Below are positions 3,727 through 28,783 of a stretch of 37,745 nt of DNA, one piece after another. Source of the DNA: Isohypsibius dastychi (Eukaryota; Tardigrada; Eutardigrada; Parachela; Isohypsibiidae); contig JAQIWT010000085.1 of NCBI GenBank assembly GCA_034696485.1, positions 1 to 37,745 of the forward strand. The letters run 5' to 3'. The notes beneath the pieces are model-generated. The model ran no database searches, was not told the origin of the DNA, and worked only from the letters and a program-made list of their open reading frames with translations. The position numbers were made by a program, and so were the translations under genes. How positions within the stretch are numbered: the stretch's first letter is position 1; every line of letters begins with the position of its first letter.

Positions 3727-3935
3727 CCTAAAAAGTGGGACACTGTGTATGTGGGACACCTGTGTATGTGGGACACCTGGGACGGAACCGGACTGGGTCC
3801 TAACAAATTATATTAGGGGGTACCTGTCTATGTGGGACAGATCTAAGTGGGACACCTATATATGTGGGACAGTTGACCTTGAACGATGCCTAAGCAACGA
3901 ACCTATTTTGTGGGACACTCTAGTTTTTTTCTACA
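3727..3935 (+). repeat. Degenerate array of GTGGGACAC units
   Basis: About seven copies of GTGGGACA(C/G) lie in one orientation, several preceded by TGTATG or CTATG (for example TATGTGGGACACCT). Spacing is irregular (roughly 17-80 nt), so it is a decayed tandem array. The same core GTGGGACAC recurs in the foldback element at 13.7-14.2 kb. The 95-codon open frame across it is a by-product of the repeat. Confidence 0.7.
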
Positions 3936-4815: not shown

Positions 4816-4974
4816 TATGTCCCACGAGCATCTGGCCGGGGGACGCCCGAAGGTTTATACTGGTGATGTCTCGGCACGTCGGCAAAACATGCGCTGATTT
4901 CGAGTTACTCACTCTGTAGCAGCCAAGGAATTCTACATGGTTAATCTAGCATGGTGGGGATTGCCACATGTGAA

Positions 4975-5402
4975 AATGGCGCCATGAACTTTCGTGGGCA
5001 GAATCTTCGTAGTCTCGAGGTTTCGTTGTTAACTTTTCGTAGCCAAGAGCTCTCGTTGTAGGAACCTTCCGTAGTCACAATCATTCGTAGCCAGCAGTTT
5101 CGTTGTGAACAATCATGGTTTCATGGGTTCCCCGTAAGAAGTTTTGCTTGTGAAACACCCCCTAATTAAATTCAAAGCACACTGAACCATTCACGAGTGG
5201 GGGAGAAACTGCAGAAAACCATAGCACCCCAAAACACCATAACCACGAAAAGTCAGCCTACGAAACCTCTTGCCTACGAGGTCAGCAGACAACGAGATTT
5301 CTTAACTACGAGAAGTATGGCAACGAAATTTCTACTACGAAACGAAATGTCTACTGTATGAAAATTCTTACTGCGAAAGGTGGCCTACGAAAATACATGA
5401 CA
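4975..5402. mobile_element. Foldback-type element, arms of TTCGTAG subrepeats
   Basis: The left arm (about 4980-5125) contains many TTCGTAG(C/T) and TTTCGTTG units on the plus strand. The right arm (about 5225-5402) carries their reverse complements (CTACGAA, CAACGAAA). The ends match as inverted repeats (CCATGAACTTTCGTGGG at the left, CCTACGAAAATACATG at the right). It sits where copy 2 has the short 65-nt first intron, so copy 2 serves as an empty-site comparison. Long inverted arms built of short subrepeats are the hallmark of foldback elements. No coding region is seen. Confidence 0.68.
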
Positions 5403-5787
5403 CGGGTGCAAATATTGAATATCCGGGAGTTGATTGATCGAGTGCACTCGATGCCATAGGTTGTGAAACATCCACTCTAATGCTTGCTTCAGGCAGGTGA
5501 CCTTTCCAATGAACCTTCTTCATGCTCCGAAATATATTTCGGCTTTCAGAATGGAATGCTAAAATTTATCATGTGAGTGCGTTCGAAAAATTGCTTATGC
5601 AACATGCTCGTGCTACTCATGGCAGCCGCAGTCAGTGGCTAAGTTGATGGCTGACAGAATGAGCCATCGGTAATGGCTCATACTCCACAAGGCTGATTAG
5701 TTACAACAACAACAAATTTCACTCAAGTCTGACGTGTTTTTTATGAAGTTCCGACAAAGAGAAATTTAGGAGTTTAGCTAACGTGCG

Positions 5788-6156
5788 CCACTTATGTCAA
5801 CCGTACATTTGAACACGTTTATCCATCCTCAGATGTTGGCACTGATGCGAATGTACTTAATGAGATGAAATTGACTGACATTGACTTGAGCACAGAAGAA
5901 GCAATCGTTTCGGAAAAGGCTCATCCTTCCATCCTTTACTGATATTTCGGCAAACTCCGATCGCAAGATTTGATTCATTCTTAGTTACCTCATTTCAAAT
6001 CTACCACGGAATTTCTCTGGAACCTTATTAGAAAGACCGAATGATTTCCTTGGCCCTTCAGTTAAGACGTAACCGCATTATTCAGTTTTTCTTGTTTGTC
6101 TGGTACAAGCAAATCGACAATTTTATGCTCGGAGTGTGACACCCTAGTTCCACAAA
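5788..6156 (+). promoter_or_regulatory. Duplicated upstream region of receptor copy 2
   Basis: About 350 nt immediately upstream of the copy 2 start is clearly similar to 3990-4330 upstream of copy 1, with matching blocks such as GACTTGAGCACA, GGCAAACTCCG/AGCAAACTCCG and GACCGAATGAT. It was carried along in the tandem duplication and presumably includes the promoter and 5' UTR. No TATA box stands out. Confidence 0.4.
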
Positions 6157-8543
6157 ATGGCATGGAATTTTCAATTTCTATTGTTAATCGCGCTTTTGGT
6201 CGCAAAAGCAGCATCAGCGTTATTCAACATCAAAATTGTCAGCATCGTACCAGATGTTCCAATCGCACCTGGTTTGCGGTACATCGGATCTGCTTTGGAG
6301 CTCGCTGTTGAAAGGGCAAATTCGATATACAAGAACAACCTGAACATTACACTTGTAACGTCTCGGCACGTCGGCAAAACATGCGCTGATTTCGACTCGG
6401 TCACTCTGGACTTTGTAGCCAAGGAGTTCTACAAAATGGATGATGGTGAAGCTTGCATGGCGGTGATTGGTACAGGTAAATATGAATGATCAGCTTACCA
6501 ATTCAGCTCACTAATTTATCGTGTGCAAACATTGCTACAGGTTGTGAAACAGCCGCCTTGGCGCTCGCTGCAGGCAAGTGACCTTTCTAGTGGAAATTTG
6601 TCACACTTGGAAATATCTCCATGGCTTTCAGAATGGAATGCTTTACATTTTGTCATGTGAGTGCGTTGAAAAAAGTGCTTATGCAGCTCGCTGGTTTGTC
6701 CTCATTTCAGCCGGACGCTTTCCAGTGTATACACGTTTTATGAGTTGCAGTACATGACGGCAGATCTAACATTGAAAAATCTAGTTTCTAGATCAAGCCT
6801 TAAGGTTTTTATCGCTACTCACCACTCTCCAAAGAATTCACTTTCTACAGCGGTCACCCAGATTTGTTATCACTTCCTTTGCAGTGGAATAGTCCCTGAA
6901 ACTCACTTGGCTGCGCGTCATACAAGACAAATCTTTCCAAGTGGGTCCAACGGTCAATTCGCAGCTGCTGTTGTTACGATCTGTTTGCATAACAACTGGA
7001 CACGTCTTTCAATCCTGTACACGGATGGCCCCTTCTACCTGGTTCTGAAAGAACCTCTTGTACAAAAAGCGACAGCGAAGAATATGACAACTGATGCTGT
7101 ATTTTTTGAATGTGGCAACAACGGATCCATATCTTCTGCACTCCGGCTAGCTAGATTGGCCAGCAGGGGTGGGTATGACCTGTGCTAACCGAGACCACAG
7201 TCGATGGTAATGCTTTACTTTTACGGTTTAGCTGTTGTCGTCGCAGCATCCACGCAGTGTTTGATAAGGCTTCTGGTCAGTAGCCAAGATTACCTCGGCC
7301 CAAAATGAAAGTAAGACTCAGAACTGTTTGCAGAGCGTTGCGGAAAAGATGAACATGACGAAGAACTATGCAAGTTTTCGACATCATGTGGTCGGGTATT
7401 TTTGATGATTCTTGGGCTATCCTAGGCTTACTTTTCGATCCAACCAGCTCAGCTGAAGACGTATGGGTCGCTGAGCCTTTTCGAAAACCCTGATCCATCC
7501 CTGGTAGACCCCACTCCTTTGATCGGTAGCAGTTGTTCTCTACTCTGTTCTTGGTAGTCTGGTGCTTTTGAGTCTGTCATTTACTTGACAATTGCATCAG
7601 TGAAGCCCGATATTCGGCAGCTTAACGAAGATCTTGCTACAACAGCTTTAGCTCAGTATGGTATGGTGTATGAGAATGCCATGAGAGTAGGTCAACACTT
7701 TGGCGATGGTTGATGGATATGATATTTAACGTCCTAAAATGTCCTCAAGCCTATGGACCTTTACACAGTCCGTGCAACCTTCGACACAATCGAACTGTGG
7801 ACTTCGATGGTGAATCACAGTTTATCCGACAATGCGAAGTGCGATGGTGCTCGAATGATACAGCGAATCATACCAGGAACTCATGAGCTAACCAGTGGAT
7901 CGTTGATGGTGAAAGAGAATGGATTCAAATTGTTTGACATCGACGTTTTTGCGTTTAACAGAAATACACGCAAGATGGAGGTATGTAGCTATTTGATGAT
8001 CATCTCTGCATCGTCCTTTTGAAGAAGGCTAGTGATTTAATGGCTCAATTTAAAATCTCAGTCGAATTCTACGAATAACCCCTTTTGTACCGTTTCTACT
8101 CTCGATATTGTGAGTGCTGTGATGATAGGTCTACGCAAGGCTGGAAGCTAACCATAAAGATTTGATATGGATCAATATGAACGGCACATCGCAGTCGAAC
8201 GTTCTTGTGAGCCCTATGATAGATGTTCGTGACTGCAGTGGGTACTCTTGCACAAACAACGGTATCAGTACAGCATATACAGTGCGGCCCATTCTTCGTG
8301 ACACATGTATTTTGAATTTTCACAGCCAGTTTGCTCACTGCTTGGATCGTTCCTTTGGTGATTATACCGGCAATCAGTTTGTTACTGTTAGGAATAGCAT
8401 TCTGGTACGTACATACCGAGAAACGTTGAGCGAAGCAGTGCACTTATGTCCATTGAAAAATCTTTTCGTACCCCAGGTATCGCAATGTAAACGCATCTCA
8501 CGGCTGGTGGTTAGCAGACTTTAACCAGCTCGTACTGGACTGA
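6157..8543 (+). pseudogene. ANF/natriuretic-peptide-receptor-like protein, copy 2 (two frameshifts)
   Basis: The start at 6157 opens a signal peptide (MAWNFQFLLLIALLVAKAAS), then an ANF-receptor ligand-binding domain. Exons read 6157-6475, 6541-6577, 6885-7168, 7232-7275, 7334-about 7492, about 7603-7703, 7750-7980, 8129-8261, 8326-8404 and 8477-8543. Family landmarks include VERANSIY, GCETAALALAA, HNNWTRLSILYT, AEDVWVAE and GTHELTSGSLMVKENG. Exon 8326-8404 is one transmembrane helix (SLLTAWIVPLVIIPAISLLL). The last exon adds about 21 cytoplasmic residues and a stop. There is no kinase-like or guanylate cyclase domain, so the layout resembles the clearance receptor NPR-C more than a cyclase. 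Frame is lost near 7375-7381 and again near 7471-7480, so it is either a recent pseudogene or carries assembly indels. The junctions around 7500-7750 are the least certain. Confidence 0.7.
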
Positions 8544-8649
8544 GGATTGGTTCTGAACGAAGAATGTCTCCAGATACTCAGTTTTAAGACCCTTTGCCTG
8601 CCATTTGTACCCTTAACCGCGGAAAGCTTGTTGTTGCGCTGTTCCACTG

Positions 8650-10140
8650 CTTTGTTTTTTGTCACCTAACTGTTGCTGCGTAAGGTCGGGCTGTTTTTTT
8701 TTATAACAGCAATGGCCGTACGGACCCAAGTAAAGCGCGCAGGGTATACGTATATGGTTCTCTGGGGGGGGGGGGGATGCTAGATCGTCAGGATTCATGA
8801 GACTTCAGGATCATTGCTCTTTTGCGGCCCGGGGTGATGACACTCCGGCATGTCCGCAGTGAACAAATTTTGTCGATGATGAAGAAGACGGGATAAATAC
8901 TCTTGCTGTCTTTTTCCAAAGATTGACTTCATTTTCTAGAAGTTGGGATTGGATCTTTACCTCGTATGAACACTCTTACCTTTGTCGTAGCAAAATATTT
9001 AAAGATCAAGAAAAAACTCTCAAACGTAGATTGGGATGACAAGTGAGCAAAACAGCAAGTTAACTACTAATACGCATTTTAATCACCGGAGAATAACTGA
9101 ACTGAAAGAACAGAAATAAGCTTGAATGATTTTCTATGTTTATTCAATTTGCTTTCTGACTCTTGTTATTTGCAATTAGGATGAATGCATCGCAATTATT
9201 CGAATTGAGTTTTCAAGAATATGATTGTTTGCTTGTTATAATGGCGTTTCGATGGCCTTATCTGAACAAGAAGATCGCTCCATCCAAGTTCATCCACGCT
9301 CAAGATCAGCTGAATCACCAGCATCTTTTAAGGCTTCTTTGACAGATATCGATTTTTTGAAAACAAAACTACTTAAAAACAATGAATTCATCTGTTTCTT
9401 GCTCCGTTTTTTTCGGTATTTTTTCAAAAATCATTGCCTGCTTCTCCCGAAACGGAGATGTACAAAAAATGGCGAAATTGCATCTGCTCACATTGGTCAC
9501 TTTTATTAAGCGTGATTCAAGGTTCAGTGAAAGGGTGTTTTTAGCTGTTAGCTCAAAGAATCTATAAAAGGAAGTAAAATCGGGTCTGTCAAACAGCAAG
9601 CACCAGGTTGTCATTTTTCAAGTCCGAGAAAATGTAACTTTAAGGTTCAGAAAGAAAAGTTGATGAGGTGTCTGTCTGCGGTTCATCACTCCTTTATAAA
9701 GCTTCGATCTACCAAACTGGGGTATCGGTGCATTTATCCGTCAAAAAGTCGAATAACAAAATCGTTAACGTTAATCGTTATAAAGTTTTGTGGGGATCCG
9801 GGTGTACGACTTGAACATCCGCTTAATTTATGTTTAGCTCGAGTGACAATGCTTTTGTACCGAGCGCTGCCTCGAACTCGGCTTGATTGTTCTTTTGTTG
9901 GTTATTTTACCTCGCACCTCAGAGGTTAACCTAAATTTTCACATTAGGCGGATCTAGATCCAGCAGGCTCGTTATGCTCTCGTGCTAACAGCATGACTGA
10001 CTACATAAGAGCTTTGTTCTTATAGTCGTTTATAAACATACATAACTCCGTCTGTTGAATTACGTGAATCTTTAAGATTACAAACAGACTGATAGTTTCG
10101 TAGTTCAGTATGCTAGTCAAATTTATCCTTAAGAAAACTG
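8650..10140. other. Spacer between receptor copies 2 and 3, no supported gene
   Basis: AT-rich spacer with short unrelated open frames. I see no ANF-domain exons here, so copy 3 was either duplicated as a 3' fragment or has lost its 5' exons. Confidence 0.5.
8764..8776 (+). repeat. G13 homopolymer tract
   Basis: Thirteen consecutive G in the spacer downstream of receptor copy 2. It is one of seven G or C runs of 11 or more in the window. Confidence 0.9.
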
Positions 10141-10160
10141 CCGCCTGAGTGCTGTGACAG

Positions 10161-10595
10161 GTCTACGCGAAGCTGGAAACTGACCAGAGAGACCTGATAT
10201 GGATTGATACTAACGGCACATCGCAGTCGAACGTTCTCGTAAGCCCCCCCCCCCCCCCATGATAGATTTACGTGACTTCAGTGGGTACTCCTGTACTAAC
10301 AATGGTACTAACACCGTATGGTCATTACAGTAAGGCCTCTTTTATTTCATAACTGTATTTTTCAGCCGGTTTGATCACTGTTTGGCTCGTTCCCTTCGTG
10401 ATTCTATCGGCGATTGGTATGTTCCTGTTAGGTATTGCATTCTGGTGTGTCCATGTTAAAGAACAAAATTTTATATTGGACTTTAATATTTGTGCTGAAT
10501 GCGACCATATAAGTTCGCCTTATTCTAGGTACCGAAACGAAAAAACGTCTGACCACTGGGGGCTAGTGAACTTGAATAGGCTCATACTGAACTGA
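10161..10595 (+). pseudogene. ANF-receptor-like gene, copy 3 (3' fragment)
   Basis: Three exons match the end of copy 2: 10161-10304 (VYAKLETDQRDLIWI, then NGTSQSNVLVS), 10366-10444 (transmembrane helix, LITVWLVPFVILSAIGMFLL) and 10529-10595 (WYRN...WGLVNLNRLILN then TGA). Splice sites are in the same places as in copy 2. A run of 15 C at 10244-10258 replaces the two-codon SP stretch of copy 2; as written it shifts the frame and creates stops at once. No ligand-binding exons are found upstream. Similarity to copy 2 continues about 80 nt past the stop. The ending of the cytoplasmic tail is alike in both copies. Confidence 0.68.
10244..10258 (+). repeat. C15 homopolymer inside an exon
   Basis: Fifteen C in the exon of receptor copy 3 at a site where copy 2 has AGCCCTATG. 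It is frame-breaking as written. Confidence 0.9.
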
Positions 10596-11068
10596 ACATT
10601 TGTTTCGACCCACAAAAATTTCGTCAAAGACAGTTTCGAGTACGAGACCGTTTGCCATCTCAACCCGTATTAGTGCGTCTTGTGAAATCAATAGAAACTC
10701 TGTACAACTTAGCCACTATTTGTAAACATGATACAAAATATGAGTGCCAGAAAAATGCAAATCTTGTTAATTTTGATTTTGAATCTTTGCCAGAAAATTC
10801 TAAAAATGTTTCGGCGGCTATCGCACTAAACCGTGGTCAGCGGGATGTGAAGGAAAATGGTAGCACGGACTGCTGTTCACCATGGTCAAAATTCTCCACC
10901 TCATCAAACGGGTCTTTTGACCATGCCATTAGGTGGCATTACTCTCAACGGTTTACACTCACAATGACTGCCGTTATCAGGAATCAACAGTCTGGAAAAC
11001 CTCCCAGTTGTGACCGCAGGTCTGGCTGCTTGAGCATTCATCTGACCAATCCCAGTGACCAAAGAACT

Positions 11069-11806
11069 TTATTGTTGGCACATAGGGCATCTGGCCACAG
11101 GGAGCATTTTCAGCCACGTTTGCAAGCACAGTCTATGGAAGATCTGTTGGCACGTTTTGCAGTATAAGTTCGGCTTCAACATCGGGTCGTCATTATACGG
11201 AACCGACAAGCAAATCTTGCAGTGTGGAGTCTCATTTTTCTGAGCCAGCGTATTGGGCTGGGGTTTCTCAGTCACGGGGATATTCGCCTCAGTCCGAACA
11301 TGTCCCTGCAAAACCTTGGCCTGTTCAGCGGTTAATGTACGTGCATAAAAGTTCTCCTTCGATTCCTTCGGAGGGTAAGCCAAGAACTTATCATTGGGTA
11401 GCCTATCAACTTTGAACGTGGTTTTCCCGCTATTTAGCATAGCTCTTGCTTCTGGACTCAGGTTTGGATCGTTGGCGTATGCATCTTCTCTTCTCACGAA
11501 CTGCTTCGTTGATGGTGGCCCAGAGCCGTCATGCGGCGGTTTTGTGAGCTCCTCAACAGCGAATTCTCTTTTTTCCGTGATTGCCCTAACAGTCGCTTGC
11601 CGGATATATTCGGTGTTCCATTCCGAGTTTTCGTTAATACCACGTCTGGCAGCGGGCTGTCCGGTTTCAGGCAGCATGATCACATTGAACTTCCCGCCTT
11701 TCTTCGCGGCATCTGCAGTGAGCTGTCTGAGTTGGGTTATGTTATAGAATACGTCTGGACCTCCTGCGGGCGCGCCCTGCCCGGAGCCTCCCTGAGCCGC
11801 GCTCAT
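11069..11806 (-). CDS. Intronless C4HC3 RING-type zinc finger protein (probable E3 ubiquitin ligase)
   Basis: A single open frame of 245 residues starts at ATG 11806 in an A-rich context (ATTAAAATG). The N-terminus is Ser/Gly/Ala-rich and low in complexity. The middle part is hydrophilic with no domain I recognise. The last 50 residues carry a zinc finger: CKIC, then CKTC, FHRLCL, W, and CPMCQ at the very C-terminus. The order of ligands is C4HC3, with the FHxxCLxxW core found in RING domains of the Listerin/FANCL and RING-variant type. Such domains bind an E2 and transfer ubiquitin. The stop TAA is overlapped by AATAAA, so the 3' UTR could be very short. The gene has no intron although most neighbours do, which could mean a retrocopy. 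It is divergently placed to the RING gene at 12723. Confidence 0.72.
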   Translation of the reverse strand: MSAAQGGSGQGAPAGGPDVFYNITQLRQLTADAAKKGGKFNVIMLPETGQPAARRGINENSEWNTEYIRQATVRAITEKREFAVEELTKPPHDGSGPPSTKQFVRREDAYANDPNLSPEARAMLNSGKTTFKVDRLPNDKFLAYPPKESKENFYARTLTAEQAKVLQGHVRTEANIPVTEKPQPNTLAQKNETPHCKICLSVPYNDDPMLKPNLYCKTCQQIFHRLCLQTWLKMLPVARCPMCQQ

Positions 11807-12722
11807 TTTAATACAGTAATTGCAGTAGAATCATGTATTACAGATAAATGAGGGACTATTACAAAAATCCGATGATCATTCGATCATAAAGGTTGAGGAC
11901 GATTTTTCTGCGAAAAGAAACTTGATCGTGTCATGGAAACCGATGTCCAGTTAAAGGTTATTGCGGTCACTCTGCGCAAATATCGTTTTCCCAAACCAGT
12001 TTGAGAAATCGGAAACAGAAGTTTCATACGTATGTCGTACACTATCTGTGATCTACTATGAGTGAATCATCAGCCGGCTTTATTGCCTGTCCACTCACGA
12101 GTCACGACATGAGCCTTATCAGGGTTTCTATCTTCATCAGTTGAAAATCTCTGATCGAGCTGATAACTCAGTAGAAAATAAGGCAGCTTCACTAAGGGTT
12201 TTGGATTCTGTGATCAAGACCGATCGGTCTCTCAAGATTGAAACTTCCCACAGAAGCTTAAAATGGACTAACCAGATGGGGGGGGGGGGGGGGGGATTCG
12301 AGTTGGAATTTCAGGTACTTGGAGAAGGGAATGGCAAACAAAGAAGACCTGACCTTGTCTTACAGTCATTGAGCAACAGAACAAAGTAATTCCTACGCCC
12401 CGTCGTTTACAGAGACATCCAACATTCTTTCAGAGAACCGGTCTCAAAACACCGCTTCGTCAAGGAGAAGTGAACCGTCTCACGCTCTGACCAGTTGAGC
12501 AAAGCTGGAGCTACCCTGCTCACGGAAAATTCCCAAATCTTCCATTCCCTTCGTTGAGTCATAGTAGCAAGCAATCAATTCAATCAAACGCTTCGTGAGA
12601 GTCTCAGAAAAGCTCTCTGTGTTGTATTCCTGGTCGTTCTTCCAGTCTGTGAAGTTCCATGCGCACCGCAGTTCACAGTGTCAACTTTTTCATTGTGTTT
12701 AGAAGCAAAGTTCTCCTGCAAA
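11807..12722. other. Divergent intergenic region between two RING genes
   Basis: 916 bp separates the start codons of the minus-strand C4HC3 RING gene and the plus-strand RING gene, so it should hold both promoters. It contains a G18 run at 12278-12295. The 82-codon open frame across that run is not convincing. No TATA box stands out. Confidence 0.45.
12278..12295 (+). repeat. G18 homopolymer tract
   Basis: Eighteen consecutive G in the promoter region upstream of the RING gene at 12723; the longest such tract in the window. Confidence 0.9.
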
Positions 12723-13465
12723 ATGGGCTTCGACCCGGAGATGCTGTATGAGTCAGCTTCAGTCGTCGCCCTTCTGGAACGCGATTACACGTGTGTTGTT
12801 TGTCACCTTATTCTAGAGGATCCAGTTCGGGTTAGTTAATTTTTTTTGCTTTCCCAGAACTTAATCGATACTTGATATTCGAATGCTAGGTTCCGAACTG
12901 TGGGCATACATTCTGTCGAGCTTGCATCAAGCAATGGCTCTCAACCAGCTCCATCTGCCCAGTTGATGGACAAGAAGTCAAGAAGAGAGCCAGATTGACT
13001 GCGCCATCTCCTCGGATTACATCCATGATTGACAATCTCAAGATCCGTTGTCGATTCAGAAGTGAGGGATGTTATGCAATCCGTAAACTGGAAGTCATTA
13101 GAGCCCACGAAAAAACATGCGGGTACGAGCTGATCGACTGCAAACGACGGTGTGGAGCTTGTTTCCATCGACGTCATCAGTACAGCCATGACTGCGTCTA
13201 CGCCATCGTGAAGAAGTTGGACAGTGAGGTCACGAGAGAACTGGACAGATCCAAAGTTCGCACTCAGAACGCTCTTTCGGTCAAAGTCGCAGCGGCCAGA
13301 AAGACTGTGAAAAGAATTCAGTGCAGAGTTCGAGCAAGCTTATCATCGCTGAAGAAACTTGAAGGGACTTTGGAGAAGCGCACTCGTGGCGGCAAGCACT
13401 CAGACACCACAAGCGATGAAGACGAGGATGAGGATGAGGAAGAGGATGAGGATGATTCAGAGTAA
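12723..13465 (+). CDS. RING + TRAF/SIAH-type zinc finger protein A (NRDP1/RNF41-like), 2 exons
   Basis: Exons 12723-12830 and 12890-13465 are joined by a 59-nt intron (phase 0) and give 227 residues. A C3HC4 RING at about residues 22-60 starts with CVVC and continues with NCGHTFCRACIKQWL and CPVD. A second zinc-binding region at about 85-140 (CRFRSEGC, HEKTCGYELIDC, CGACFHRRHQYSHDC) has the spacing seen in TRAF/SIAH-type fingers. This order is that of NRDP1/RNF41-type E3 ligases. A basic helical stretch follows, then a C-terminal tail almost wholly Asp/Glu/Ser. The start at 12723 is supported by the paralogue at 19337, which begins with the same MG(F/Y)D. The likely role is ubiquitin ligation; the substrate is unknown. 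The NRDP1 substrate-binding C-terminal domain is absent. Confidence 0.85.
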
Positions 13466-13712
13466 TGTGCAAGATAGTGTTCTCCATTTCTGTACAGTTT
13501 TTCTTTGGTTAAACCACGAAGCGGATATCAGCAATGCAATTCGTTTTAAAACATGAAATCACTCTTTTCCATTTGTGTAATTGCCTTTTTTAGCTTCAGT
13601 CATTTGATCATGGAAATGTGGTCTGTGTTGAGCATCGCAGAACTTTATAATAATCTGTCCTCCAAGCATATATGGCCTGTCTTGTACAACTGTTGAAAAA
13701 TTTGGACAAGAT

Positions 13713-14200
13713 TTGTATGACTGGCCCACATGCTGTGGGCTTTGTGGGATATGTGGAATACTTACGAATTAAATGGTACCTATCCCACCCTGTGGGATAA
13801 CGTGGGATGACAAGGGTCACGTCCCACACTGTGGGACACGTGGGGTCTGTGGGATACGTGGGATCAGTGGGATGGCGAGCTTCATGTCCCATACTGTAGG
13901 ATACGTGGGATCTGTGGGACACTGTGGGACGACAGATCCCACGTATCCCACAGTGTGGGACATGTAGCTCGCCATCCCACATATCCCACGTATCCCACTT
14001 CTCCTACGAATCCCACAGTGTGAGACGTGACCCTTGTCACCCCACAGTATCCCACGTATCCCACAGTGTCGGACATGAACCTCGCCATCCCACAGTATCC
14101 CACGTATCCCACAGACCCCACGTATCCCATAGTGTGGGACAGGAACACTCTCGTCCAACAGTGTCCCACAGATCTCACGTATCCCACTGGCATACAGAAC
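13713..14200. mobile_element. Foldback-type element, arms of GTGGGATAC subrepeats
   Basis: The left arm (to about 13925) is rich in GTGGGATACGTGGGATC and similar units. The right arm (from about 13930) carries the reverse complement, GATCCCACGTATCCCAC. The best-matched parts are 13799-13919 against 13930-14050, and include non-repeat words such as TGACAAGGGTCACGT and GATGGCGAGCT, so the arms are a true inverted duplication. The outer ends also pair (TGTATGACTGGCCCAC with the complement of GTATCCCACTGGCATACAG). Several open frames of 60-148 codons on both strands are translations of the repeat and not genes. It lies about 250 bp downstream of RING gene A. Confidence 0.75.
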
Positions 14201-14535
14201 GCTGTCTGATTTTTTGAGGTCATGTACAACACATGCCATATCTATATCACCGGATAAGTGCAATTATACTGTCTTCCTAGCTGGAAATCCCACGTACTCT
14301 GTACTGGCGAGAAACAGTACATTGTTTTAAAGATTGTAAAGCACATTCCATCACGTTTTAATGTTAATGGACAGACGAGATGAACAACAGAGCATCGAAA
14401 AACAGCTCTCGGTTAGAACTGACTTGAGCCAGCATCCTTCGCACTCAGGTTGACCACGTAAAACAAAAAGAAAACCCATTCTTCGGAACTTCCAGCTGGA
14501 TTGTACTGAAATATGAAATCGTTGCTCTTGGACTG
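14200..14535. other. Spacer, no supported gene
   Basis: Unremarkable sequence between the foldback element and the tandem array; nothing supported. Confidence 0.4.
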
Positions 14536-14840
14536 TGCGTAAGTATCGGTATGTGCGTAACTTCGGGCACTTATCCGTTTGGTGGGACCCATCAGTTTAA
14601 ATCATATTGGATACGCACGTAACTTTTGGTACGTAGGTCACTTTGTTGCGCTCATTACTTTGGGTACGTACCGTATTTTGATACGGACGACATGTCAAGT
14701 TCTTACGTAACTTTAGATGCACACGTAACTTTGGGTGCTTACGTAACCTCAGATTAACACGCCACTTGGAGTACATGTGTCATTTTGATACGTACGTTAG
14801 TTAGGGTATGTCCGTAACCTAAAGTAAACAGCTTGAATAC
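14536..14840 (+). repeat. Degenerate tandem array of ACGTAACTTTGGGTGC units (left part)
   Basis: Repeated variants of CGTAACTTTGGGT(A/G)C at roughly 20-nt spacing, for example TACGTAACTTTAGATGC, CACGTAACTTTGGGTGC and TTACGTAACC. The same units resume after the retroelement at 18420-18464, showing that the retroelement inserted into the array. Confidence 0.7.
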
Positions 14841-15066
14841 TTAAATGAAAATTAAGAAATGAAACGCCTTAATTGTGGTTAATTCTTTGCGATACGTGTT
14901 TTGAGCGTCGCTTTGTCGGTTGTCTGCTCCCCTCTTTCATGTCTGAAACTGATCATTCTGATGCGCACTTCTGCGCAGTAACGTCTGTTGTTTTGTACAG
15001 CGCCTTCATTCGACTTGCTCGAACGTTTTGAGTCAGTTGTTGTTCGCCGGGTTGTACAGTTTTTAC
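14841..15066 (+). repeat. Retroelement split direct repeat A1
   Basis: 226 bp, identical by eye to 18024-18249 (offset 3183). It begins TTAAATGAAAATTAAG and ends GTTGTACAGTTTTTAC. It contains an ATG at 15028 in frame with the gag ORF. Confidence 0.9.
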
Positions 15067-15093
15067 TTCTACTTTTACTTCTACCGCTGCATT

Positions 15094-16227
15094 ATGTCTG
15101 GATCTGATTCTGATTCTTCTTCCCACCCATCAGCGGATTATCATAAGGATAACATCTCAGCTGCGGATTCAGACCTTCCTATCGCCAACCGGACTCGTCG
15201 TGCTCACGTTCAAATTAATCAGACTCGTTCTGGGAAAGTTCAGAAGAAGAACAAAGAAAAGCCTAGTCGTCCTTCCCAGAATGCTCGGGTTATCGAGCTC
15301 GAAAAGAAAGTAAAGGAATTGTCAGCTCGTCTTCCTTCGTCTTCAGGTAAGACTTTGTTCCGCTTGCCTTCTCCTCCTCTAGTCTCTCCTGTTTCCGTCA
15401 TATCTGTTTCATCTCAAAATTCTGAGTGTGGCAACGGGATTTCTCGGCTGGGTCATCAGAATGTTGATGGGCACACTTCAGCTCTCGGTTTCACGATCCT
15501 CAGATCGGACCTACCAGCTGTCCCTGCCTATCTTCGCTCTGCTCTGGCCAACTTATCCGAACACATTGTCCTCGAAGATCTGCTACCTGGTAATCGAGCC
15601 GTTAGCTCCCACCGGGAACGTGGGTCTCAGTTCGTGCCCGAGCAATTAACCGATTTCGCCGCTTGGTTCCGTGCGTTTCATGTGTTTTTTCTGTATCGAT
15701 CATTCCATCATCCTCATCTTGCTGTTCCATTGCAAAAGTACGCCGAAATCATCGCGGGATTGGCTGATCCAATCTCCGGATATCCACTCGCCCAATGGCT
15801 GAGATATGATGCGCATTTCCGCCTGTTCGCCGCTGCGCACTCCACTGACGTTATCATCTGGACTGAGCCGCATTTTCAAACAGCACAGTCCTGTCTTTTG
15901 GCCCGCGACGCGGTTCAGCCTGAGTTCACCGGTCAACAACAACCATTCTCTCGCCGTTGTCACGAATGCGGCGACCTTCCCCACTTCGCATCCCAGTGTC
16001 ACCAGACGGATCCACTTCCCAACCTTCAGCCCTTTCGTTCCCGCCCCGCCTCGAGCGGGGGACCATGCTTCAAGTTCAACTTGGGAATGTGCAACAATTC
16101 CCCCTGTCCCAACGGATACGCTCACAAATGTATCACCTGCGGAAGAGAAACGCATGGACAGTATAATCACCAAGTCCCAAAACCCGGCATCTATTCCAGC
16201 GGGAATCCTGACGCCACTCAAGATTGA
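15094..16227 (+). CDS. gag: Retroelement Gag-like protein
   Basis: The frame is open from 15028. I prefer the ATG at 15094 because it lies outside repeat A and opens the Ser/Asp-rich N-terminus (MSGSDSDSSS) typical of Gag-like ORF1 products. A short coiled coil (VIELEKKVKELSARL) is near residue 70. The C-terminal part holds a CCHC zinc knuckle (CHECGDLPHFASQC) and a second Cys/His cluster (CFKFNLGMC, CITCG), the pair seen in Gag of tyrosine-recombinase retroelements. The expected role is RNA binding and particle assembly. It overlaps the RT ORF, which lies in the +1 frame, by 74 nt if RT starts at 16154. Starting at 15028 instead would add a hydrophobic leader (LLFAGLYSF). Confidence 0.8.
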   Translation: MSGSDSDSSSHPSADYHKDNISAADSDLPIANRTRRAHVQINQTRSGKVQKKNKEKPSRPSQNARVIELEKKVKELSARLPSSSGKTLFRLPSPPLVSPVSVISVSSQNSECGNGISRLGHQNVDGHTSALGFTILRSDLPAVPAYLRSALANLSEHIVLEDLLPGNRAVSSHRERGSQFVPEQLTDFAAWFRAFHVFFLYRSFHHPHLAVPLQKYAEIIAGLADPISGYPLAQWLRYDAHFRLFAAAHSTDVIIWTEPHFQTAQSCLLARDAVQPEFTGQQQPFSRRCHECGDLPHFASQCHQTDPLPNLQPFRSRPASSGGPCFKFNLGMCNNSPCPNGYAHKCITCGRETHGQYNHQVPKPGIYSSGNPDATQD

Positions 16228-17800
16228 TGGTTTCCGACAACTCCTGTCGAACCACCCAAGCCCAGCTTTCGTGGAAAAGATTTTACATATCCTGCGTTTT
16301 GGCGCTAATATTGGTTTTTTGGGTCCTCAGCACCCTCGTTGTACAGCTAATGCTCGAACCGCGATTGATAATGCTGCGGTAGTGGTTTCTTCTGTGGCGA
16401 AAGAAGTCGAGTTGCTTCACTCTTTCGGCCCGTTTGCTTCCGTTCCTTTTGAAAACTTCGTGTCGAGTTCACTTGGTGTCCGCGCCAAGAAGAATGGTGG
16501 TTTTCGCCTCATAATGGATCTTTCACGACCATTTGGCGACAGTGTGAACGATTTTATTGATCGCGAATCTTACTCTGTTGCTTATTGTACGATTGATGAT
16601 GCCGTCAATTTAGCCATTAACGCGGGTCGTGGTTGTCTCATGGCTAAAATGGACATCAAGCACGCTTACCGCTTGATCCCAGTCCGGCCTGACGACTGGC
16701 ACCTGCTCGGCTTCATGGTTGACGATGAGTACTTTTTTGATGTTGTTCTACCTTTCGGGTTGCGGTCCTCCGCATACCTTTTCTGTCTTTTCTCCGAAGC
16801 CTTCAACTGGATTTTATGCGATTACACTAAATGTGATGCCATCCTTCATTATGTCGATGACTTCTTTTTCGTGGGTTCACCGGCCTCAGACCAGTGCAGC
16901 AAGCTCCTCCACTCTGCTCGCCAGATAGCCCCTCTGCTCGGAATCCCTCTAGCAGAAGAGAAGACCGAAGGTCCGTCCACTGCAATCACCTTCCTCGGAA
17001 TCGTCATCAACTCTAGTTCACAAACTATCCGTCTACCTCAAGGGAAGCTAAAAGAGATCCAAGATCTGATTGCTCTCTGGAAGTCAAAGGTCACATGTAC
17101 AAAGACGGAACTGCAAAGTCTCATCGGGAGTCTTCAATTCGCGACAAAGTGCATCGTGGCAGGCCGGTTGTTCACCCGCCGTTTGATTAGCCTTCTTTGT
17201 GGTCAATCTTACAAGAGTAAGATCAAGCTTGATGAGGATTTCTTCCGGGACCTCGATTGGTGGGAAGAATTTCTTCCTAAGTGGAATGGAACCTCTTCGT
17301 TCATTCCGATCAAGTGGTGTTCTCCTAATGTGTTGAAGCTCTACACCGATGCTGCTGCCGCGGTCGGTTTTGCTGGTTTTCTTGATGGTCGATGGTTTCA
17401 CGGCAAGTGGCCCTCTGAAATGGTGTTCTCTCTTCAGTGTATTGAACTGCTCGAATTGGTTCCGATCTTTGCTGCGTGCTTGTTGTGGTCTGCCGATCTG
17501 TCTGGCAAGCGTGTTCTTTTTCATTGTGACAATCTGGGCTTAGTGCAAGCTTGGGCCAAATTGGGTTCCACTAACCGCGGGGTTCTTCACCTAATGCGGG
17601 CGATTGTTGCAATCGCATCTGAATTCAATTTCGCGCTCAACTTGACGCACATTCCTGGTTATACTAACTCCATCGCTGACGCCTTATCCCGCTTTCATAT
17701 GGAGAAATTCCGTCAACTAGCTCCACATGCCGACGCAACTCCGATTCCTCTGCCCTCCAAGTTTTACGACATTTTGGAACAAGCTGTGAAGTGTGTCTGA
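16154..17800 (+). CDS. pol: Retroelement reverse transcriptase - RNase H
   Basis: 548 residues from ATG 16154; the frame is open further up to 15806, inside gag. The reverse transcriptase has KKNGGFRLIMDLSRP, MAKMDIKHAYRLIPV, VLPFGLRSSAYLF and the catalytic box HYVDDFFF, followed by AITFLGIVI. These are typical of the DIRS/Ngaro group. The RNase H domain follows with its acidic residues in LYTDAAAA, ELLELVPIFAA, FHCDNLGLV and ADALSR, after the THIPGYTN word. The frame has no internal break, so the protein may be functional. Translation may use reinitiation at the overlap or a +1 frameshift; I see no decisive signal. No recombinase or methyltransferase domain follows. Confidence 0.88.
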   Translation: MDSIITKSQNPASIPAGILTPLKIDGFRQLLSNHPSPAFVEKILHILRFGANIGFLGPQHPRCTANARTAIDNAAVVVSSVAKEVELLHSFGPFASVPFENFVSSSLGVRAKKNGGFRLIMDLSRPFGDSVNDFIDRESYSVAYCTIDDAVNLAINAGRGCLMAKMDIKHAYRLIPVRPDDWHLLGFMVDDEYFFDVVLPFGLRSSAYLFCLFSEAFNWILCDYTKCDAILHYVDDFFFVGSPASDQCSKLLHSARQIAPLLGIPLAEEKTEGPSTAITFLGIVINSSSQTIRLPQGKLKEIQDLIALWKSKVTCTKTELQSLIGSLQFATKCIVAGRLFTRRLISLLCGQSYKSKIKLDEDFFRDLDWWEEFLPKWNGTSSFIPIKWCSPNVLKLYTDAAAAVGFAGFLDGRWFHGKWPSEMVFSLQCIELLELVPIFAACLLWSADLSGKRVLFHCDNLGLVQAWAKLGSTNRGVLHLMRAIVAIASEFNFALNLTHIPGYTNSIADALSRFHMEKFRQLAPHADATPIPLPSKFYDILEQAVKCV

Positions 17801-17921
17801 CCTCATCCCTCCCAAACGGAACCCTCCAAGCGTTGAAAAAATCAAACTCACCTCACCTTTCTGAACTACGGCACCGTCTTTCAACCTCGTCTGATTTGGC
17901 TTGGATGTTTTGGGGGATTTT

Positions 17922-18022
17922 GGGGGTTTTTGAGTGGTCAGTTTTATGCCTACGCTTTGGGCTTTCTGACCTCTTGGAGCCCCCGAACCGGCAACCCCTT
18001 CGAGTTCGTTCCACAGCAAAGA
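17922..18022 (+). repeat. Retroelement split direct repeat B1
   Basis: 101 bp, identical by eye to 18303-18403 (offset 381). It abuts A2 with one extra A at the junction (18023). Confidence 0.9.
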
Positions 18023-18023
18023 A

Positions 18024-18249
18024 TTAAATGAAAATTAAGAAATGAAACGCCTTAATTGTGGTTAATTCTTTGCGATACGTGTTTTGAGCGTCGCTTTGTC
18101 GGTTGTCTGCTCCCCTCTTTCATGTCTGAAACTGATCATTCTGATGCGCACTTCTGCGCAGTAACGTCTGTTGTTTTGTACAGCGCCTTCATTCGACTTG
18201 CTCGAACGTTTTGAGTCAGTTGTTGTTCGCCGGGTTGTACAGTTTTTAC
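18024..18249 (+). repeat. Retroelement split direct repeat A2
   Basis: Second copy of repeat A. It carries the same ATG (18211), but the frame then leaves the gag sequence, so this copy encodes nothing useful. Confidence 0.9.
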
Positions 18250-18302
18250 CCGCCCGGCCCGCCCATTGTCCTTATCACCGTTTGTACAGTTCTGTCAATA
18301 AA

Positions 18303-18403
18303 GGGGGTTTTTGAGTGGTCAGTTTTATGCCTACGCTTTGGGCTTTCTGACCTCTTGGAGCCCCCGAACCGGCAACCCCTTCGAGTTCGTTCCACAGCAA
18401 AGA
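18303..18403 (+). repeat. Retroelement split direct repeat B2 (right end)
   Basis: Second copy of repeat B; right boundary of the element. The sequence continues CTTAACTGACTCAAG and returns to the host tandem array. Confidence 0.9.
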
Positions 18404-18419
18404 CTTAACTGACTCAAGT

Positions 18420-18464
18420 AAATGCGTCACTTTGAGTAAGCACGTAACTTTGGGTGCATACGCC
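18420..18464 (+). repeat. Tandem array, right part
   Basis: Two to three units (GCGTCACTTTGAGTAAG, CACGTAACTTTGGGTGC) continuing the array at 14536-14840. They end where the next foldback element begins. Confidence 0.6.
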
Positions 18465-18970
18465 TGTAACCGTTTTTGCGAACTCCCCGTTTTCTTGAAG
18501 CCGGGGTTCACAAACCCCGTATTTGTGAACTTTTCAAGATTCACAAACAAACCCCGTTTTCTTGAACCCAGCCGTTTTTCTGAACGGGTTCACAAAACCC
18601 GTTTTCTTGAACTCCGCCGTTTACGGTTTTTATCACTTGCAAATTAAGGGAGAATAGTTCATCTGATAATGCAGCTCAGTTTTAGTTTCAGTTTCAGCTT
18701 TTCAGCCAACCGTTTCAAAATGTAAAGACTAGTATTCCTGCTTGCTCCACATGCTGCACCCTACCTCGAACGTGAGTTTTCTGTTGAAAAAAGCTGTCTC
18801 ATGAGATGAGCTGTTTTCCCTAGTTTGCAAGTGACAGAAACCGTAAGCGGTGCAGAGTTCAAGAAAACGGGGTTTGTGAACCGGTTCAGAAAAACGACTG
18901 GGTTCAGAAAAACGGGGCTTATGAGCCTTGATCGGTTCAAGAAATCGGGGAGTTCAAGAAAACGGTGACA
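18465..18970. mobile_element. Foldback-type element, arms of CCCCGTTTTCTTGAAC subrepeats
   Basis: The left arm (18465-about 18645) holds several CCCCGTTTTCTTGAA(C/G) and related units. The right arm (about 18825-18970) holds the reverse complement, GTTCAAGAAAACGGGG. The ends pair (TGTAACCGTTTT at left, AAAACGGTGACA at right). The inner edges also pair (CCGTTTACGGTTTTTATCAC with the complement of GTGACAGAAACCGTAAGCGG), as do the adjoining CTTGCAAA words. The spacer is about 180 bp and non-coding. It is the same architecture as the elements at 4975-5402 and 13713-14200 but with an unrelated subrepeat. Confidence 0.75.
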
Positions 18971-19091: not shown

Positions 19092-19336
19092 TTGAATTAC
19101 CACTTAATTTCGGTTTACTTGGTAATTTTTATTTTTATGCTTCGCTTCGCTAACAGTAGCGAAGCTGTTTTCCCAGGCCGCTCAAGCTATTACTGTCTTT
19201 ATCCCATTTAGCAAATTCTACTTCCTCGTTGCCAAATCTGTCTTTGAAGTCTCCTATTTACTGCAGTCCGCAGCATCAGCTTCTGAAAGAGTTAGCTTCT
19301 GAATTCAGTGTGCAGAGTGCAGAACTTCACAACAGA

Positions 19337-20056
19337 ATGGGCTACGACACCGAGATGCTGGACGAACCAGCTCCAGTTCTCGAGCTTCTGAAACGTGATT
19401 ACACCTGCGTGATTTGCCAGCTCATTCTGGAGGACCCAGTTCAGGTTAACATCAATCTACTCTCAACCCCAATAACTTTCATGTCAGGATTTGTCTTTCA
19501 GGTTCCAAAATGTGGTCACACATTCTGTCGAGCTTGCATCAGGCGATGGCTCTCAACCAATCCTACTTGCCCAGTTGATCGTGAGGAAATCAAGAAGAAG
19601 ACCAAGCTGACTGCACCATCTCGTATAATCACATCCATGATCAACAACCTCAAAATCCATTGTCGATTCAAGAAGGATGGATGCCCTGAGATACGTAAAG
19701 TGGAAAATATGGAAGCTCATGAGAGCGCATGTGGATTTGAGATGATCAGCTGTGAATTGCGATGTGGAACCACGTTTCGACGAGCCAACCAGCTAGGCCA
19801 CCACTGTGTCAAGTCCATCGTGGGAAGATTGAAAAAAGATCTCGACGGAGAACTCGCCAGCTTTGTGTGTTTTGCTGGACGCTCACTTCCGGGCAAAGTC
19901 GCATCTGCAAGACAACTCATGAAAAGAATCCAGAAGAAAGTTCGAGTCAACTTATCCTCGCTGAAGAAGGTTGAAGCGACACTGAAGAAGCGCGGAAGTC
20001 CAGGTGGTGATGCCGACACCACTAGCGAAGACGAAGACTGGGATGAGGATGAGTAG
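19337..20056 (+). CDS. RING + TRAF/SIAH-type zinc finger protein B (NRDP1/RNF41-like), 2 exons
   Basis: Paralogue of RING gene A. Exons 19337-19444 and 19502-20056 are joined by a 57-nt intron at the same position and phase and give 220 residues. The RING runs from CVIC through KCGHTFCRACIRRWL to CPVDRE. The second zinc region has CRFKKDGCPEI, HESACGFEMISC and CGTTFRRANQLGHHC. A basic helical stretch and an acidic tail ending in DEDWDEDE follow. The 57-nt intron is a multiple of three with no in-frame stop, so an unspliced mRNA would still encode a full protein with 19 extra residues inside the RING. The open frame extends upstream to 19229, but gene A supports the MGYD start. The likely role is E3 ubiquitin ligase, substrate unknown. 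Confidence 0.85.
   Translation: MGYDTEMLDEPAPVLELLKRDYTCVICQLILEDPVQVNINLLSTPITFMSGFVFQVPKCGHTFCRACIRRWLSTNPTCPVDREEIKKKTKLTAPSRIITSMINNLKIHCRFKKDGCPEIRKVENMEAHESACGFEMISCELRCGTTFRRANQLGHHCVKSIVGRLKKDLDGELASFVCFAGRSLPGKVASARQLMKRIQKKVRVNLSSLKKVEATLKKRGSPGGDADTTSEDEDWDEDE

Positions 20057-21693: not shown

Positions 21694-28783
<7,090 letters not shown>

Follow-up and report, generated by a model that had tools for sequence, protein, structure and literature searches.

The window, that is, the whole stretch of 37,745 nucleotides analyzed here, is contig C85 (JAQIWT010000085.1) of the Isohypsibius dastychi assembly, which comprises 30.4 Mb in 1648 contigs. It contains three elements, designated F1, F2, and F3, each consisting of inverted arms that are built of short degenerate tandem units. 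Their borders, taken from the comparison with their copies, and the flanks of F1 are as follows:

F1, 4978..5404, no strand assigned: non-autonomous foldback with TTCGTAG-type arm units every 14–16 bp and the ends GGCGCCATGA and CGTGTCATG.
Left 9-bp flank of F1, 4969..4977, no strand assigned: TGTGAAAAT, identical to the right flank at 7 of 9 positions.
Right 9-bp flank of F1, 5405..5413, no strand assigned: GGTGCAAAT, identical to the left flank at 7 of 9 positions.
F2, 13672..14244 (approximate), no strand assigned: almost spacer-free foldback with GTGGGATAC-type arm units and short non-repetitive terminal parts.
F3, 18465..18970, no strand assigned: foldback with a spacer and ends of the type TGTAACC...

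The left arm of F1 has seven copies of [TC]CGT[AT]G that are 14–16 bp apart, and the right arm has seven copies of its complement, six of them at the same spacing. In F2, the arms (13792-13915 and 13932-14055) are 124 nt long, 87% complementary, and separated by 16 nt; in F3, CCCCGTTTTCTTGAAC-type units lie on either side of the spacer. The unit sequences of the three elements are unlike one another, as the original prediction had described, and its account of F2 as almost spacer-free and of F3 as having a spacer also holds. The reality of the arms was assessed by local alignment of one half of each element with the reverse complement of the other half, together with 300 dinucleotide shuffles of each. 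F1, F2, and F3 have scores of 43, 158, and 154, respectively, as compared with shuffle maxima of 36, 30, and 31, and no shuffle reached the observed score in any of the three (0/300 each), in agreement with the predicted foldback architecture. Elsewhere in the window, 272 stretches of 500 bp have a mean score of 17.9; one of these stretches scores 71, more than F1, and F1 is therefore not outstanding by inverted pairing alone. It is the weakest of the three in this respect, and its case rests on its regular units and its copies. Among ORFs of 120 residues or more, none encoding a transposase was seen inside F1, F2, or F3, as had also been noted before; the reverse transcriptase ORF at 15806-17800 is part of a separate retroelement.

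At least 54 genomic matches were obtained for F1 and at least 140 for F3; these counts are lower bounds because 40 of 57 candidates were scored for F1 and 40 of 72 for F3. With up to three mismatches allowed, the F1 end pattern has 135 matches in the genome as compared with 7 for the reversed control, and the F3 end pattern, TGTAACC...GGTTACA, has 107 as compared with 5. F1 and F3 each form a dispersed family whose ends are fixed, and the layout of Drosophila FB elements that had been proposed for the window is borne out by the inverted arms of tandem units and by the copies with shared ends. The two arms of the same F3 element have an identity of 0.903 (n = 14) and those of different elements 0.892 (n = 364); these values are nearly equal and therefore give no sign of strong arm conversion. 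Single F3 ends are found at C404:357, C1091:57, C1185:123, and C328:23082 (C328 is 23202 bases long), in each case at most a few hundred bases from where the contig ends, as if F3 hairpins had broken the assembly at these places.

For the analysis of target-site duplications (TSDs), ends were paired by motif, the flanks were compared at lengths of 3–11 bp, and shuffled partners served as control; the ends were picked by the fewest motif mismatches, and the TSD was not used in the choice. An end pair was obtained from 34 of 36 F3 sources (none from L104 and L105), a set that takes in one-ended loci and two overlapping C13 loci (L049 and L108). For F1, 27 of 34 sources gave a pair (none from L066, L073, L074, L077, L078, L080, and L084), in a range that takes in the F2 loci L072, which was paired and has no TSD, and L073. 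F3 has a TSD peak at 6 bp, perfect in 14 of 34 pairs and with at most one mismatch in 21, the shuffled partners giving a mean of 1.58 and a maximum of 5. The F1 peak is at 9 bp (perfect in 5 of 27 pairs, at most one mismatch in 8, shuffled partners 0). All 14 perfect F3 duplications, read by eye, have CG at positions 3–4; the frequency of this dinucleotide in the retrieved DNA is 0.046. A TSD within one mismatch is absent from 13 of the 34 F3 pairs and from 19 of the 27 F1 pairs, including the window copies of both. The flanks of the window F3 copy, TACGCC and ACCGTG, are identical at only 2 of 6 positions, a pattern compatible with chimerism or rearrangement of this copy, as described for Galileo.

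Two F3 copies have related empty sites. The joined flanks of copy L086 match L078 across the junction (75% over 219 bp), where L078 has CACACA at the place of the insertion-site CACGTA, and the joined flanks of copy L036 match L044 (72% over 140 bp), where GTCGAC is present once. These matches are direct evidence of F3 insertion with precise borders. For F1, no empty site was found among the retrieved loci for the 16 copies tried.

F2 is rare, with copies detected on three contigs (C85, C196, and C35) that have non-repetitive end parts in common; the C196 copy is cut off by the contig end. One or both borders are common to the three places, but a consistent TSD is lacking: in the C35 copy, a 12-bp direct repeat (0/500 shuffles) lies beyond the shared right border by about 38 bp, and the window copy has a single 9-bp pair with one mismatch, away from the borders. 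At the right end, the non-repetitive terminal parts are 95–98% identical between contigs, and, judged from the shared ends, F2 is likely to have been mobile. In L072 (C196, ∼475-1296), the F2 copy is directly adjacent to F1-type sequence, within which lies a further inverted repeat (CCCCAGTTGGGCGGAGG...), an arrangement that suggests nested foldbacks. At 3735-3779, the window has a short array of tandem GTGGGACACCTGTGTAT units similar to the arm units of F2.

It had been suggested that foldbacks are made here from local tandem arrays, and local inverted duplication of satellite arrays could in principle have formed each hairpin in place, without transposition. The long tandem arrays of F2, its presence in only three places with no consistent TSD, and the window F3 copy without a TSD are what such a process might leave, and the F2 ends with 95–98% identity between contigs are difficult to accommodate. 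F1 and F3 have precise borders, fixed ends, and TSD peaks, and F3 has empty sites in addition; therefore these two were not made from local arrays, and we consider local duplication very unlikely as an account of the three. The expectation that mobile elements would have several copies with shared ends and TSDs, as opposed to being unique and without TSDs, is borne out for F1 and F3 and only in its first part for F2. Rather than local satellite accidents, all three are best interpreted as remnants of transposons.

Larger foldbacks with a transposase between the arms, which the original prediction had proposed to search for, exist in the same genome. MULE domains are encoded at 16 places, 15 of them above the Pfam cut-off, and ten of these loci were examined together with up to ∼1.5 kb of flanking DNA per side, depending on the extent of the contig. 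They comprise three groups. (i) In L097, L100, and L098, the gene is enclosed by inverted arms of tandem units. (ii) L096 has a 136-bp inverted repeat of a different kind. (iii) The remaining six showed no arms of this kind within the examined stretch. L100 (2220 bp, TSD GGTGCTATT) and L097 (2140 bp, TSD GGGTCCAGC) encode FLYWCH and MULE domains between foldback arms of TT[CG]GGAG units, mostly spaced every 14–16 bp and close to the TTCGTAG of F1. L098, in which the MULE match contains a stop, has a further arm type, with 30-bp TGCGCTCACGGGTG-type units at 682-761 and 2577-2648. On C762, L100-like arms span 6650-8609. The first named protein match of the L100 transposase is from the tardigrade Paramacrobiotus metropolitanus, with 41% identity over 54% of the query; protein searches with ORFs of the window returned no match.

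L100 has two unlike ends, as F1 has, and over 22 end positions the corresponding ends of the two agree at 15 and 14 as compared with 12 and 11 for the swapped ends. BLAST detected no similarity to F1 in the ten MULE loci, so that the link of F1 to L100 and L097 rests on the ends and the unit spacing. No transposase was found within an element with true F1 ends, and a comparison by eye of the 16 MULE places with the 100 listed of the 135 F1 ends showed no contig common to both. A candidate autonomous partner, L112, has F1-like ends ∼3.3 kb apart; it was rejected, having no matching 9-bp flanks and no transposase recognized among its ORFs by inspection. The 9-bp duplication of F1 (7 of 9 positions in the window copy) agrees with the 8–10 bp, usually 9 bp, of Phantom/Mutator elements. 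We read F1 as most likely a non-autonomous Phantom/Mutator foldback, with the Phantom class taken from the domain content of L100 and L097.

The 9-bp and 6-bp duplications set F1 and F3 apart. Because of this difference the two do not belong to one superfamily, and at least two transposition systems of this genome have foldback arms. The original prediction had allowed for a single diverse FB-like superfamily, in which F1, F2, and F3 would have subrepeats diverged beyond recognition. The three do have a common layout, and variation of the arm units among the genome's MULE elements is indeed seen (F1, L097, L100, and L098); with unlike TSD lengths and unrelated ends in F1 and F3, such a common origin is nevertheless highly improbable. 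We consider it likely that both F1 and F3 are foldback-armed DNA transposons of the cut-and-paste type, non-autonomous and each dependent on a different transposition system, that F1 is moved in trans by a Phantom-type MULE, and that F2 is probably a third family. The FLYWCH and MULE enzymes that move F1 would be of the L100/L097 kind. Such an enzyme, supplied in trans, would bind the end motifs and probably also the repeats of the arms, cut F1 out, and insert it at a target site opened with a stagger of 9 bp. The arm units would then be putative transposase-binding sites; sites of this kind in the arm repeats of Galileo are reported by Marzo et al. (2013), as cited in PMC4079207. F3 would follow a similar route with another enzyme, presumably its own, and a 6-bp stagger centered on CG.

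No transposase was found for F3, for which the search covered longer F3-ended elements, loci behind single F3 ends, and the rve, hAT, and P-type domains of the genome. Two longer elements with F3 ends were scanned in six frames, stops being read as residues, for Pfam matches up to E 0.1. L107 (1964 bp, TSD GTCGAG) gave no match, and the sole match of L108 (4159 bp, flanks GTCGAC/GTTGAC) was raffinose synthase (E 0.071), taken as chance; neither was retained as an autonomous partner. L113, behind a single F3 end on C1336, proved to be another degenerate F3 copy. L102, behind a single F3 end on C957, contains ORFs, one of which may be BTB-like. Domains of the rve, hAT, and P types occur at 71, 18, and 5 places in the genome, respectively; the place nearest to any of the 100 listed of the 107 F3 ends, judged by eye, is ∼5 kb away on C198, beside a self-complete F3 copy.

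It is moderately likely that F3 belongs to a known DNA-transposon superfamily, for example of the rve, hAT, or P type, whose autonomous copy is missing from the assembly, which is fragmented; domains of these types are present in the genome. According to the excerpts available, TSDs of 6 bp are found in IS3EU and of 6–7 bp in Dada, and IS481EU elements have TGT...ACA ends. Each likeness is accompanied by a difference: fungal IS3EU families end in TAYGG..CCRTA (PMC12730594), unlike F3; Dada elements lack terminal inverted repeats and are inserted in small RNA genes, whereas F3 has long inverted arms and no RNA gene was detected by Rfam and tRNA scans of the window; and IS481EU has TSDs of about 4, 15, or 25 bp. 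The nearest domain place is moreover ∼5 kb from the listed ends, and a 7-bp duplication, as in the P superfamily and Galileo, is present within one mismatch in 0 of 34 F3 pairs. By their descriptions, Mutator, Dada, IS3EU, and IS481EU do not fit the TSD and ends of F3. A further reading, which we regard as rather unlikely, is that F3 is a foldback lineage with a transposase outside the assigned superfamilies and with a strict CG-centered 6-bp target, the arms having arisen independently on two or three unrelated systems in one animal genome. The view that foldback structure could arise separately in distinct lineages is cited in PMC4079207, and F3 is a possible candidate for a variant not described before.

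Comparison with known foldback systems is limited to what the available excerpts of their descriptions contain. F1 closely follows the plan of Tm1, a Mutator/Foldback element of root-knot nematodes (Meloidogyne; PMC3169594), and by this likeness would be a known kind of element. Tm1 has tandem arm units of ∼14 bp, 9-bp TSDs, and different motifs at its two ends, as F1 does; its unit and end sequences differ from those of F1, and it has both MITE-like members and members that carry a FLYWCH and MULE transposase, whereas an F1-ended carrier was not found. Rehavkus (PMC6446971) is similar in its 9-bp TSD and a minisatellite near one end, but has a PHD finger in place of the FLYWCH domain of L097 and L100. 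Tetris of Drosophila virilis (PMC4079207) is likewise a foldback without an autonomous copy; it differs in its TSDs of 8–10 bp and is assigned to Mutator. Foldbacks are mostly assigned to Mutator, with Galileo of the P type as an exception (PMC4079207). Galileo, of Drosophila (PMC3573991), has long, internally repetitive arms and chimeric copies with non-matching flanks, which the window F3 copy could resemble; its flanking duplications are of 7 bp, as compared with 6 bp in F3, and its transposase is of the P type. Among the entries read from searches of the open-licence PMC literature on foldbacks, MITEs, and inverted repeats, none describes a foldback with a 6-bp TSD, and the sole match for a tardigrade foldback concerns a fungus gnat. 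The occurrence in a single genome of foldback arms on two systems, which differ in TSD length (9 and 6 bp) and one of which has a CG-centered 6-bp target, may be new. The MULE foldbacks with the gene in place make it testable whether the arm units are transposase-binding arrays and change with each enzyme, and F3, with its sharply defined CG-centered target, lends itself to a biochemical test.

The retroelement at 14841-18412, which contains an RVT_1 ORF (15806-17800) and ends 52 bp before F3, has two direct repeats: 14841-15066 is repeated at 18024-18249 (226 bp, 100%) and 17922-18031 at 18303-18412 (110 bp, 98%). It looks young. We take this layout of split direct repeats to be that of PAT/Ngaro-type DIRS elements; no recombinase domain was present in the two ORFs scanned. 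Degenerate TACGTAACTTTGGGTGC-type units flank it at 14607-14820 and 18437-18462, as if the retroelement and F3 had been inserted into one older array of such units. Close to the elements are a RING-finger ORF at 19229-20056 and a TIG-domain ORF at 22149-22547; the latter, which suggests an animal, is presumably EBF-like, the TIG domain being typical of EBF proteins.
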